Positions 1,695-4,128 of a DNA stretch of 36,861 nucleotides are shown in pieces. The DNA comes from Crocinitomicaceae bacterium. GTDB taxonomy: Bacteria; Bacteroidota; Bacteroidia; Flavobacteriales_D; Crocinitomicaceae. The translations under genes were made by a program, and so were the position numbers. The notes beneath the pieces were generated by a model. That model was not told the origin of the DNA. It saw only the letters and a list, made by a program, of their open reading frames with translations, and did no database searches. The stretch covers positions 1 to 36,861 of the forward strand of contig JAQWFQ010000023.1 of assembly GCA_029238665.1 (NCBI GenBank), in the 5' to 3' direction. Every line of letters begins with the position of its first letter. The first letter of the stretch is position 1.

Positions 1695-1814
1695 TTATTC
1701 TTTTATTATCATTTTCTTCTCCACTGTACCATCATTATAGATGTATATAAGAGGTGTGTTTGGTTTAAATGGTGTCTCTCTGCCTAGCACATCAACAATT
1801 TTTATTAGTTGCTT
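1695..1814 (-). pseudogene. Remnant T9SS type A C-terminal sorting tail, one base out of frame with the upstream gene
   Basis: In the frame shifted by one base from the DUF723-like gene, 39 codons ending in TAA (1695-1697) read as a type A sorting tail, with KQLIKIVDVLGRETPF followed by KPNTPLIYIYNDGTVEKK. The blocks IVDVLGRE, PNTPL.YIY.DGTVEKK and a short basic end are the standard form of this tail in Flavobacteriales. No body of the cargo protein precedes it; instead, in the same frame, it is joined to the third repeat of the DUF723-like protein (CKKHGEFLQSP). It is therefore a scar of a gene whose front was lost, or a chimera restored if one T is added at the 8-base homopolymer at 1847-1854. 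Confidence 0.8.
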
Positions 1815-2374
1815 AGGTGATTGTAAGAATTCTCCATGTTTTTTACAAAAAAAATAACCTTTTTGCCTTTTGTCTTATAAATAACCTTGGAGTAATCATA
1901 TTGATCACCGTGTATTTTTATAAATTCTGTAATTATATCTTCTCTAATATAAATTGACTTGTCTGTTTTAGACTCACTATTACATTTTGGACAGTTAGAT
2001 CCTTTTTTAAATCTCTGTGGACTTGGGGAAAAAGCACCATGTTTATGACAGATTACTTTTATATTCGTATGAGCATTTATATATTTAATTTGTGAAAGGT
2101 CATATCTAGCACCATGAACAGCTCTAACTTGCTTTATATAATTTTCTTGAGAGGTTTTAAATAGTTTGGATCTATTTTCAATACTACATTTTTTACATCC
2201 TTTACCGCTAAGATGATTTGTTGGTGTTTGTTCAAATGTACCATGAATTTTACATCTAAGAATAACTTTAGTTTTTGCTGACAAATATATTACATCATTG
2301 TAATCATATTTATTACCGTGTACATCTTTTGCTTTTTGTATAAATAAATCAGTTTTCTTATTAACCATGGGCAT
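1805..2374 (-). CDS. DUF723-like zinc-knuckle repeat protein, truncated in its third repeat
   Basis: About 189 residues with two complete copies, and the start of a third, of a repeat of the form HG.kYDYs.viY followed by C..HG.F...P and a C..C pair (CKIHGTFEQTP with CKKC; CHKHGAFSPSP with CPKC). This resembles the DUF723-type zinc-binding repeats found in phage and mobile-element proteins, often near nucleases. The third repeat begins (HGDQYDYSKVIY) but loses its frame at eight consecutive T (1847-1854 on the complement). The encoded end KNMENSYNHLSN is not family-like, whereas one more T gives CKKHGEFLQSP. An open frame extends up to TTG at 2380, but ATG at 2374 or 2368 is preferred because of the promoter box at 2378-2385. 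The gene is divergent from hipBA and AT-rich. Function unknown; the reading frame looks broken or the assembly lacks one base. Confidence 0.6.
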   Translation of the reverse strand: MPMVNKKTDLFIQKAKDVHGNKYDYNDVIYLSAKTKVILRCKIHGTFEQTPTNHLSGKGCKKCSIENRSKLFKTSQENYIKQVRAVHGARYDLSQIKYINAHTNIKVICHKHGAFSPSPQRFKKGSNCPKCNSESKTDKSIYIREDIITEFIKIHGDQYDYSKVIYKTKGKKVIFFVKNMENSYNHLSN

Positions 2375-2377
2375 ACT

Positions 2378-2385
2378 CAAATATA
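2378..2385 (-). promoter_or_regulatory. Bacteroidota -7 box for the DUF723-like gene
   Basis: TATATTTG on the minus strand matches TAnnTTTG perfectly. It lies three bases before the ATG at 2374 and nine before the ATG at 2368, so the message would have almost no leader. No convincing -33 TTTG is seen. Confidence 0.5.
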
Positions 2386-2451: not shown

Positions 2452-2469
2452 TGTCACCATTCCCTTACA
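2452..2469. promoter_or_regulatory. Candidate HipB operator O1 (one mismatch)
   Basis: TGTCA-N8-TTACA, matching the half-site rule TGTAA-N8-TTACA at 9 of 10 positions. It is the member of the array farthest from hipB and lies between the two divergent promoters, 67 bases from the box of the DUF723-like gene. Confidence 0.45.
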
Positions 2470-2501
2470 TTTTATAGTTTTTTAGCAATTATGTAATCAT
2501 G

Positions 2502-2519
2502 CAATTACACTATCTAATT
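2502..2519. promoter_or_regulatory. Candidate HipB operator O2 (perfect)
   Basis: TGTAATCATGCAATTACA is a perfect TGTAA-N8-TTACA dyad whose match extends to TGTAAT-N6-ATTACA. The spacing is identical to the promoter-overlapping site at 2568-2585. Confidence 0.6.
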
Positions 2520-2526
2520 CCACAAA

Positions 2527-2544
2527 TGTAACCACATCATCACA
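2527..2544. promoter_or_regulatory. Candidate HipB operator O3 (one mismatch)
   Basis: TGTAA-N8-TCACA, 9 of 10 matches to the same rule. It starts 25 bases after O2 and ends 18 bases before the hipB -7 box, about where a -33 element would be contacted. Confidence 0.45.
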
Positions 2545-2561
2545 ACCAGCGTATAATTAAG

Positions 2562-2569
2562 TATATTTG
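2562..2569 (+). promoter_or_regulatory. hipBA promoter -7 box
   Basis: TATATTTG is a perfect TAnnTTTG box ending 18 bases before the hipB ATG at 2588. No clear TTTG stands 19-20 bases upstream. Its last two bases are also the first two of operator O4, so a bound repressor would block the promoter. Confidence 0.6.
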
Positions 2570-2585
2570 TAATTAAACCGTTACA
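2568..2585. promoter_or_regulatory. Candidate HipB operator O4 (perfect, over the start site)
   Basis: TGTAATTAAACCGTTACA is a perfect TGTAA-N8-TTACA dyad that overlaps the end of the -7 box and the expected transcription start and ends two bases before the hipB ATG. This is the position expected of an autoregulatory antitoxin operator. Confidence 0.6.
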
Positions 2586-2587
2586 TT

Positions 2588-2863
2588 ATGGAGTTATTTA
2601 AGAAACTAGATGGAGAATTAATGATAGAACTCGGGGGGAACTTAAAGCAACTTCGTAAAAGTAAAAGGTACAGCCAACACGAGCTCGCAGATCAAATTGG
2701 TGTAAGCAGAAAACACGTCATCGATATTGAAGCCGGGAGAGGAACGTCATTGTTGGTCTTTATCAAAATACTCAAAGCGTTTAATAAATCGGAAAAGTTA
2801 CTAGAAGTACTAAGCGCATCTCCCTTTTCACCAAAAGAAATGTTTAACAAAGAGAACAAATGA
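2588..2863 (+). CDS. hipB: HipB-like antitoxin, Xre-family helix-turn-helix repressor
   Basis: A 91-residue protein with one Cro/C1 helix-turn-helix domain at about residues 16-72; the recognition helix is near 39-48 (VSRKHVIDIE). The size is close to E. coli HipB (88 residues). Its TGA stop overlaps the ATG of the hipA-like gene by four bases, so the two are translationally coupled, as in known hipBA operons. In the family, HipB dimers bind and neutralise the HipA kinase and repress their own promoter. Here four TGTAA-N8-TTACA-like dyads precede the gene and are the likely binding sites, with the one at 2568-2585 covering the start site. The function is assigned from the domain and from the partner gene; the DNA targets are inferred. 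Confidence 0.88.
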   Translation: MELFKKLDGELMIELGGNLKQLRKSKRYSQHELADQIGVSRKHVIDIEAGRGTSLLVFIKILKAFNKSEKLLEVLSASPFSPKEMFNKENK

Positions 2864-4128
2864 GCTCAGCGAAAATAACAATATGGGACAAGATAATTGG
2901 ATACATCTATTGGGATGACAAAAACCAATCTGTAATATTCGAAGCAGATGAAGAGTATCTCCAAGCGCCATTCAACATTGCGCCAATAATTCATGAAAAC
3001 AAAGCGGAACAATTAATGGGTCAAGACTTCCATGGCAAATTTAACGGGCTGATTCCTCCCTTCAACGATTCTCTTCCAGACGCATTTGGTAACATCGTGT
3101 TTAAAGAGTGGTTGGAACAAAATGAAATGGATCAATCTGACATGAATCCTGTTGAACGATTACTCTATGTTGGGAAAAGAGGGATTGGAGCCCTGGAATA
3201 TCATGAAAGCAAAGACATTCCAAATACGATAGAGCGCATTGACCTGAAAGAGTTATCCCAAGTGTCCGACAAAATTATAAAACGCAAATACGAACAAGAA
3301 GATTATTTGCACAACCCTGAATCCTTAAAAAACATCCTCACAATAGGGTCTTCTGTTGGTGGTGCACAAGCAAAAATTTTAATTGCAATAACGAAAGAAG
3401 GCAAATTACTTGCTGGAGATTTAATACACCATCAACCTGTGGACTATTACATAGTGAAACTTGAACATGATCCACAGAACATTTGGAACAGGGAAAAAAA
3501 CTATGTCGAGTATGTGTACAACCAAATTGCATCGGACATTGGAATCAATGTTGCTGAATCAATCTTGATTCATGAAGGAGGTAGGGCACATTTTGCAAGC
3601 AAACGATTTGATCGAGTTGACAACCAAAAAATTCATAAACAAACCGTAAATGCCTTGGTTGGATTTTTCGGGAAAAATCATGAATTCTCCTATGAGAACA
3701 TCTTTAAAATCATAGAATATTTAGGCTTGTCTTATTCTAATTCAGAACAGCTCTTTATGCAAATGGTTTTTAATGTAGTAGCTTCCAATAGAGACGATCA
3801 CACCAAAAATTTCTCCTTCTTAATGAACCAAAAAGGAGAGTGGTCATTGTCTCCAGCTTATGATTTAACTTTTCCGTTTGACCCATACCTAAGCTTTGTT
3901 ATACCTCATCAGATAAGCATTAACGGTAAAAACAAAGGCATAACACGAGAAGATGTAGAAACTGTGGCACAGCGAGCAGGTATTCGCAACTACAACCAAA
4001 TTATTGAAAAGGTTATTAAACAAGTGTCTACTTTTTCTGAAAGGATCAAAGCATATAATTTGAACGCCAGAACAATAGAGCTCATTGTAAAAGATTTACA
4101 ACTGAACATAACACGCATGAAAAAATAG
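2860..4128 (+). CDS. hipA: HipA-like serine/threonine-protein kinase toxin
   Basis: A 422-residue protein of normal HipA length, with a HipA_N-type region (about 1-110) and a HipA_C kinase region (about 160-390). Visible motifs are the glycine-rich SSVGGAQAK loop (164-172), which in E. coli HipA contains the autophosphorylated serine; the catalytic loop NRDDHTKN (310-317); and the metal-binding AYDLT (333-337). All expected catalytic residues are present, so the kinase is probably active. E. coli HipA phosphorylates glutamyl-tRNA synthetase and causes growth arrest; other HipA-like kinases use other aminoacyl-tRNA synthetases, so the target here is unknown. Unlike HipST/HipBST systems, both kinase lobes are on one chain. 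The gene is coupled to hipB by an ATGA overlap and is presumably cotranscribed from the promoter at 2562. Confidence 0.92.
   Translation: MSSAKITIWDKIIGYIYWDDKNQSVIFEADEEYLQAPFNIAPIIHENKAEQLMGQDFHGKFNGLIPPFNDSLPDAFGNIVFKEWLEQNEMDQSDMNPVERLLYVGKRGIGALEYHESKDIPNTIERIDLKELSQVSDKIIKRKYEQEDYLHNPESLKNILTIGSSVGGAQAKILIAITKEGKLLAGDLIHHQPVDYYIVKLEHDPQNIWNREKNYVEYVYNQIASDIGINVAESILIHEGGRAHFASKRFDRVDNQKIHKQTVNALVGFFGKNHEFSYENIFKIIEYLGLSYSNSEQLFMQMVFNVVASNRDDHTKNFSFLMNQKGEWSLSPAYDLTFPFDPYLSFVIPHQISINGKNKGITREDVETVAQRAGIRNYNQIIEKVIKQVSTFSERIKAYNLNARTIELIVKDLQLNITRMKK

Follow-up and report, generated by a model that had tools for sequence, protein, structure and literature searches.

The 36,861-nucleotide stretch of DNA analysed here (the window), which is contig C28 in a genome of 2.2 Mb, carries hipB and then hipA on its forward strand and, in front of hipB, an array of four inverted repeats of the form TGTAA-N8-TTACA that recurs with its positions, spacing and promoter overlap before homologous hipBA genes. 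From this comparison of sequences we consider it highly probable (about 90%) that the array is the operator region through which HipB, alone or together with HipA, represses its own hipBA operon. The features are the following, position 1 being the first base of the window:

1805-2380, reverse strand: divergent ORF with DUF4379-like repeats, the last of which runs on in another frame
2452-2469: putative operator O1, TGTCACCATTCCCTTACA, matching TGTAA-N8-TTACA at 9 of 10 bases
2492-2509: putative operator O2, TGTAATCATGCAATTACA, 10 of 10
2527-2544: putative operator O3, TGTAACCACATCATCACA, 9 of 10
2562-2569, forward strand: Bacteroidota -7 promoter box of hipBA, TATATTTG (TAnnTTTG)
2568-2585: putative operator O4, TGTAATTAAACCGTTACA, 10 of 10, sharing its first two bases with the end of the -7 box and lying over the inferred start site
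2588-2863, forward strand: hipB, 91-aa helix-turn-helix (HTH) antitoxin/repressor (Pfam HTH_3, 2.4e-12)
2860-4128, forward strand: hipA, 422-aa HipA-type kinase toxin (HipA_C, 1e-42; Couple_hipA, 5.9e-12)

A diverged hipBA module and its four dyads

By its sequence the locus is a hipBA type II toxin-antitoxin module, with toxicity and neutralisation predicted: the HTH gene stands immediately 5' of the HipA-fold gene (Pfam matches above cut-offs), the two reading frames overlap by 4 bp at the hipB stop and hipA start, and HipA contains the motifs SSVGGAQAK, NRDDHTKNF and PAYDL. The kinase residues S165, G167-K172, D312, H314, N317 and D335 are invariant in nine aligned HipAs, taken from the 16 loci with hipA among those compared below, and presumably have the roles of their counterparts in E. 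coli HipA. This hipA is the only gene in the genome with a HipA_C match; its structure model (mean pLDDT 61.8) was left out of the analysis.

Among solved relatives, E. coli HipB was the best phmmer match to the window HipB (6.7e-5), with other XRE proteins close behind. A Foldseek search with the HipB model (pLDDT 84) returned many HTH proteins at weak scores, headed by the restriction controller protein C.BclI (9.4e-4) and followed by, among others, the HipBs of Pseudomonas, Legionella, E. coli and Shewanella (1e-3 to 1e-2). We treat the protein as a diverged HipB because it scores below the curated cut-offs of both HipB-like NCBIfam models (28.5 of 79 bits for NF007271 and 37.3 of 71.65 bits for TIGR03070). 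It also differs from E. coli HipB, with which it shares 30% identity over 73 residues (BLASTP), at the C-terminus: the E. coli protein has a C-terminal Trp that is described as entering HipA (PMC10627512), whereas the window HipB ends KENK and none of the 16 aligned HipBs ends in Trp.

The sequence-only reading had placed four dyads before hipB, each with eight bases between five-base arms. There are four, and the spacer holds for all of them; the second, however, stands ten bases from where it had been put, at 2492-2509 and not at 2502-2519, which reads CAATTACACTATCTAATT. The successive spacings from O1 to O4 are 40, 35 and 41 bp. O1 sits inside a longer imperfect palindrome (2445-2476, TGTAAAATGT ... 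ACATTTTATA).

As a single word the dyad is ordinary, both in the window (45 places at up to two mismatches vs 40.7 expected) and in the genome, where the count that the same reading had proposed as a route to other targets stayed at background (164 places at up to one mismatch vs 179 for the reversed control); further targets in this genome were rejected on that count, and three other exact dyads were set aside, two lying within ORFs and one in a hairpin. The cluster before hipB is unusual: four sites scoring at least 9 fall in the 207-bp intergenic stretch, which none of 20,000 shuffles reached. When any 5-mer dyad with any spacer of 0-20 was allowed, 18 of 1,000 shuffles reached four, and the window on its own is marginal once any dyad may be picked. 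We judge the array real because homologous promoters share the dyad; they settle what the window shuffles leave marginal.

The last site lies on the promoter. TAnnTTTG is found 26-28 bp 5' of the ATG in 14 of the 18 loci compared below, and in 13 of the 18 its last two bases are the first bases of a scoring O4; where it is missing, L037 and L040 carry TAnnTTAG at that place, and L038 and L009 nothing similar. By the rule given for the Bacteroidota box in PMC9723704 (-12 to -5), the box at 2562-2569 puts the start site near 2574, inside O4, and O4 would therefore cover about -6 to +12, in agreement with the earlier claim that the last site covers the end of the -7 box and the start site.

The array is conserved in front of hipBA

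HipB relatives were drawn from 240 genomes of the family, from samples of 399 (order) and 395 (phylum) and from GTDB contigs, sets that overlap. After removal of duplicates (L005-L008, L011, L013, L041, L045-L047) there were 18 loci, window included: 14 with HipBs 57-91% identical (the window itself aside) and a far group of four at 41-48% (L010, L012, L052, L054), which was kept out of the dyad count and base matrix yet is counted in the 18. Weak matches (L014-L035, L044, L055-L067), 36 loci that were scanned as a control, stand outside the 18. The phylum sample gave no additional close HipB and five weak ones only; viral contigs gave one weak locus for each of two HipB queries and no HipA match, and plasmids five records at 30-37% HipB identity. 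A hipA gene, complete or truncated where the contig ends, lies 3' of hipB in 16 of the 18 loci.

The sequence-only reading had turned on whether homologous hipBA promoters carry the dyad, and they do: TGTAA-N8-TTACA is the commonest exact dyad in the 13 homologous promoters (window and far group excluded), at 16 places in 9 loci, whereas in 200 shuffles no dyad occurred more than 3 times, and the second commonest, GTAAC-N6-GTTAC, is nested inside it. We scored each operator position in a slot 9-11 positions wide and called it filled at 8 or more of 10, a score that 0.92% of 13,750 background slots reach. All four slots are filled in 7 of the 18 loci (the window, L036, L038, L039, L040, L043 and L053), and O3 and O4 are both filled in 15 (exceptions L037, L054 and L009); the O1-O2 pair is missing in several relatives, and L010 has an AT-rich O1 slot at 8/10 but no O2. 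The two pairs are rigid, O1 and O2 standing 40-41 bp apart in 7/7 loci and O3 and O4 40-41 bp apart in 15/15, whereas the distance between O2 and O3 varies (34-37 bp, 7/7 loci). In the 40 pooled sites the base after TGTAA is mostly C (0.62) or T (0.25), and the centre is A/T-rich. In the far group, L010, L012 and L052 keep the 40-41 bp with altered dyads, and one weak match (L022, HipB 33%) carries a pair of dyads at -152 and -111, a distance of 41 bp, 5' of a HipA-like ORF.

These results bear on the alternative that AT-rich dyads cluster by chance in the window, or that they form RNA hairpins. A GC content of 28% and the 18 in 1,000 shuffles that give four of some dyad speak for it, but other genomes share the word, the positions and the spacing, and 7 of 17 homologue loci have two dyads that each score at least 9 and stand 30-50 bp from one another, against 1 of 36 weak matches, that one also preceding a HipA-like ORF. 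Since the conservation runs across HipBs 41-91% identical and not across near-identical copies, we take this alternative to be refuted, with scarcely any probability left to it.

Some loci depart from the pattern. L037 and L054 have hipA, yet their slots score 5, 8, 8, 7 and 5, 6, 7, 6 of 10, respectively, the sites being decayed or unrecognised. L009 (genome G032) is an orphan hipB, 58% identical, with neither hipA downstream nor sites upstream; at L049 (G020) O4 scores 10/10 and O3 8/10, though hipB is followed by no more than ~24 codons that resemble the end of hipA (tblastn E 0.2). On the HipB tree, whose deep forks are weak, two-site loci are scattered (L048 and L049 beside L009; L050 and L051; L042 beside the four-site L043), and our reading is that the O1-O2 pair may have been lost repeatedly. 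L040, L041, L046 and L047 are identical over hipBA (1.77-2.69 kb and, upstream, at least 183 bp more); they come from genomes of two families (G271 in f4, G269 in f9) and from two MAGs belonging to a single sample series, perhaps the same genomes, a pattern that suggests recent transfer or mis-binning.

Because the array in the window sits between hipB and the divergent DUF4379-like ORF, which may be a frameshifted gene or an assembly error, the sequence-only reading had allowed that it governs both. The likely box of the divergent gene (TATATTTG, 2385-2378, reverse strand) is, however, 66 bases away from O1, and other loci have other upstream ORFs: the longest lies on the forward strand in 8 of the 17 loci that have one, and its sequence differs by eye among loci, except in the related pairs L048/L049 and L010/L012. 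L036 has no upstream ORF in the 407 bases available. As upstream neighbours differ between loci, we assign the array to hipBA and not to the divergent gene, and find joint control very improbable.

Probable autorepression by HipB

Autoregulation, which the sequence-only reading had suggested as the purpose of the array, is thus the interpretation that we retain, given the conservation among homologues and the position of O4 over the promoter. One HipB dimer would bind each 18-bp dyad, with a refined half-site TGTAAY and a full site of about TGTAAY-N6-RTTACA. O3, 41 bp 5' of O4, would span about -47 to -30, and occupancy of O3 and O4, perhaps cooperative within the pair, should exclude RNA polymerase; O1 and O2, which in the window stand 40 bp apart and so have nearly the same spacing, would act as a second pair that strengthens or sharpens repression. 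By analogy with E. coli, HipA may serve as corepressor. We favour this autoregulation because the sites keep place and spacing across HipBs 57-91% identical, because the orphan hipB L009 has neither hipA nor sites, because site size and number match those of E. coli K-12, because the genome has a single HipA_C gene and its three other exact dyads fall in ORFs or a hairpin, and because elsewhere in the class the word at the box site of hipBA promoters tracks, by eye, the HipB recognition helix. Against it stand the decayed sites of L037 and L054 despite hipA, the perfect O4 of L049 with its scrap of hipA, the HipB scores below curated cut-offs and C.BclI as top Foldseek match.

The dyads could also be sites of another, more global regulator, such as a CRP/FNR-like protein or another XRE protein, under whose control hipBA happens to fall. 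Single dyads at up to one mismatch are common enough in the genome for this, but they show no genome-wide enrichment over the reversed control; among the 41-bp pairs listed, up to G131, from the 240 family genomes, the only mismatch-free ones precede hipB genes (G016, G131), the array travels with hipBA past differing upstream ORFs, and other hipBA loci keep the geometry with a word that shifts, by eye, with the HipB recognition helix. We hold such a regulator to be improbable. The 41-bp pair pattern at three mismatches was tried across the 240 genomes and discarded, being mostly like its reversed control.

E. coli HipB is reported to occupy its four operators in a cooperative manner, HipA acting as corepressor (PMC3920265), and contacts of operator-bound HipA to bear on persistence (PMC7029023). 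In E. coli K-12 we found four perfect TATCC-N8-GGATA dyads at -134, -106, -67 and -39. The sequence-only reading had equated the number and spacing of the sites with those of E. coli and noted a different half-site: the four sites, the 18-bp length, the N8 and the new half-site (TGTAAY here vs TATCC, with no TATCC dyad in the window intergenic stretch at two mismatches) hold, but the distances between sites (40/35/41 vs 28/39/28) do not agree. Both arrays stand before an HTH gene that overlaps a HipA kinase gene and have equal outer spacings flanking a different middle; the order is long-short-long in the window group (40-41/34-37/40-41), unlike the short-long-short of E. coli. With several putative 18-bp operators 5' of hipB, one of them over the promoter, the locus has a multi-operator layout, and the array is very probably a HipB-type operator array that differs from the E. 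coli one in half-site and spacing.

The Legionella HipBST operators, as described in PMC10653801, are 18 nt long with 6-nt half-sites and were proven by gel shift; as here, the first covers the predicted promoter (there 24 nt before hipB) and the word is lineage-specific, whereas that three-gene system has three sites, 53-bp gaps and another word. Caulobacter hipBA1 and hipBA2 are likewise described as preceded by a series of inverted repeats, said to fit the higher-order complex of E. coli, with three sites each, unlike the four here (PMC8545095, PMC7029023).

A candidate 41-bp operator grammar in the class

A HipA_C profile search of 385 genomes of the class gave matches in 173, from which we took 110 loci, 30 returned by the search and 80 hand-picked, high-scoring first, with some short-frame, contig-end and second-copy rows skipped. 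An ORF precedes hipA in 106 of them, 81 of these pass a crude XRE regex, 80 have enough upstream sequence and 76 are non-redundant, none coming from the 14 genomes of the window group; HipBs in this set were identified from their location and the regex instead of a profile, with the first ATG taken as the start.

In 15 loci of one HipB type, picked by eye, GAATG-N6-CATTC occurs at 6 exact places in 6 loci (at most 3 in 100 shuffles), with one copy often near -39 and an upstream pair 40-41 bp apart in L092, L094, L098, L103, L105 and L113. Dyad counts for single loci mostly do not rise above shuffles in the first 26 class loci with a hipB-like ORF (2 of 25 were reached by at most 2 of 60 shuffles: L098 and L100, the latter a T-rich stretch), so the class signal needs pooling. 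With the word left free, we scored the 200 bp before hipB, at each distance from 19 to 90, for the two 18-bp dyads that best match a shared half-site. In the 76 loci, which include the GAATG loci that suggested 41 and so are not wholly independent, the remainder having been fetched afterwards, 41 bp leads with a mean of 18.89 vs 17.57 in shuffles (z 12.3). The runners-up at 30, 21, 20 and 51 bp reach z 4.6-5.3, so the background is higher than the shuffles indicate, perhaps because of 10-bp phasing. A score of at least 20 of 24 is reached at 41 bp by 29 of the 76 loci, some of these 29 being AT-rich and perhaps chance matches, and no other distance brings more than 10 loci to that score; the controls at 41 bp give 0/76 in hipB coding sequence, 0/76 in hipA coding sequence and 2/67 at 200-400 bp upstream, and the window group (without the window and L009) 8/16. 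Sites of 18 and 20 bp score equally well, and the centre distance is therefore firmer than the site length. Distances of 20-21, 30-31 and 51 are mildly raised besides 41 in the 76 regions, a 10-bp rhythm that may reflect phased A-tracts.

TAnnTTTG is present in 58 of the 76 class loci, most commonly at -46 (27 loci). The 18-mer starting from the TG of the box, which fixes the leading TG of box dyads by construction, has a mean arm symmetry of 3.55 of 6, compared with 1.98 (sd 0.41) over all offsets and 2.64 at the next best; the symmetry is at least 4 in 28/58, against 7.9% elsewhere. Where box and separate 41-bp pair are both present (24 loci), the box dyad has the word of the pair (at least 8 of 12) in 15, and in 13 of these no other position fits as well. 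Class half-sites vary (TGAATG, TGATGC, TGTAGT, TGTTGT, TGTCGG and others). Matched by eye, and with exceptions such as L106, the recognition helix GISRSTLSLLE goes with TGAATG/TGTATG, GVHRVT(L/I)SEFE with TGTAGT, GVHRTTIRDLE with TGATGT and, in the window HipB, GVSRKHVIDIE with TGTAAY.

These sequence patterns make it fairly likely that a common operator grammar underlies the hipBA promoters of the class. Its words would be exchangeable and follow the recognition helix, and a box dyad would be joined by a pair of the same word exactly 41 bp apart, in contrast to the 28 bp within E. coli pairs; the window would be one dialect. As 41 bp is about 3.9 turns, paired sites would lie on the same face, and the constancy of this distance under changing words suggests that neighbouring complexes keep their mutual contact even as the DNA sequence they recognise diverges. 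By such a rule HipB operators in this phylum would be readable straight from DNA; the literature matches listed held no described HipB operator for the phylum and one related report, which speaks of an orphan CRISPR (PMC5704556).

That report describes, in Bacteroides fragilis, a short repeat series directly 5' of hipB, as here and in the same phylum, in 71 strains and with no cas genes, and its authors suspect hipAB regulation. It has 3 repeats of 24 bp with a mean spacer of 39, which gives a mean period of 63 and not the 41 found here; our guess is that these repeats may form an array of HipB operators, perhaps another dialect of the grammar. One nearest repeat to this orphan CRISPR is attributed in the same source to Fluviicola taffensis, of the Crocinitomicaceae, the family also named for L036.
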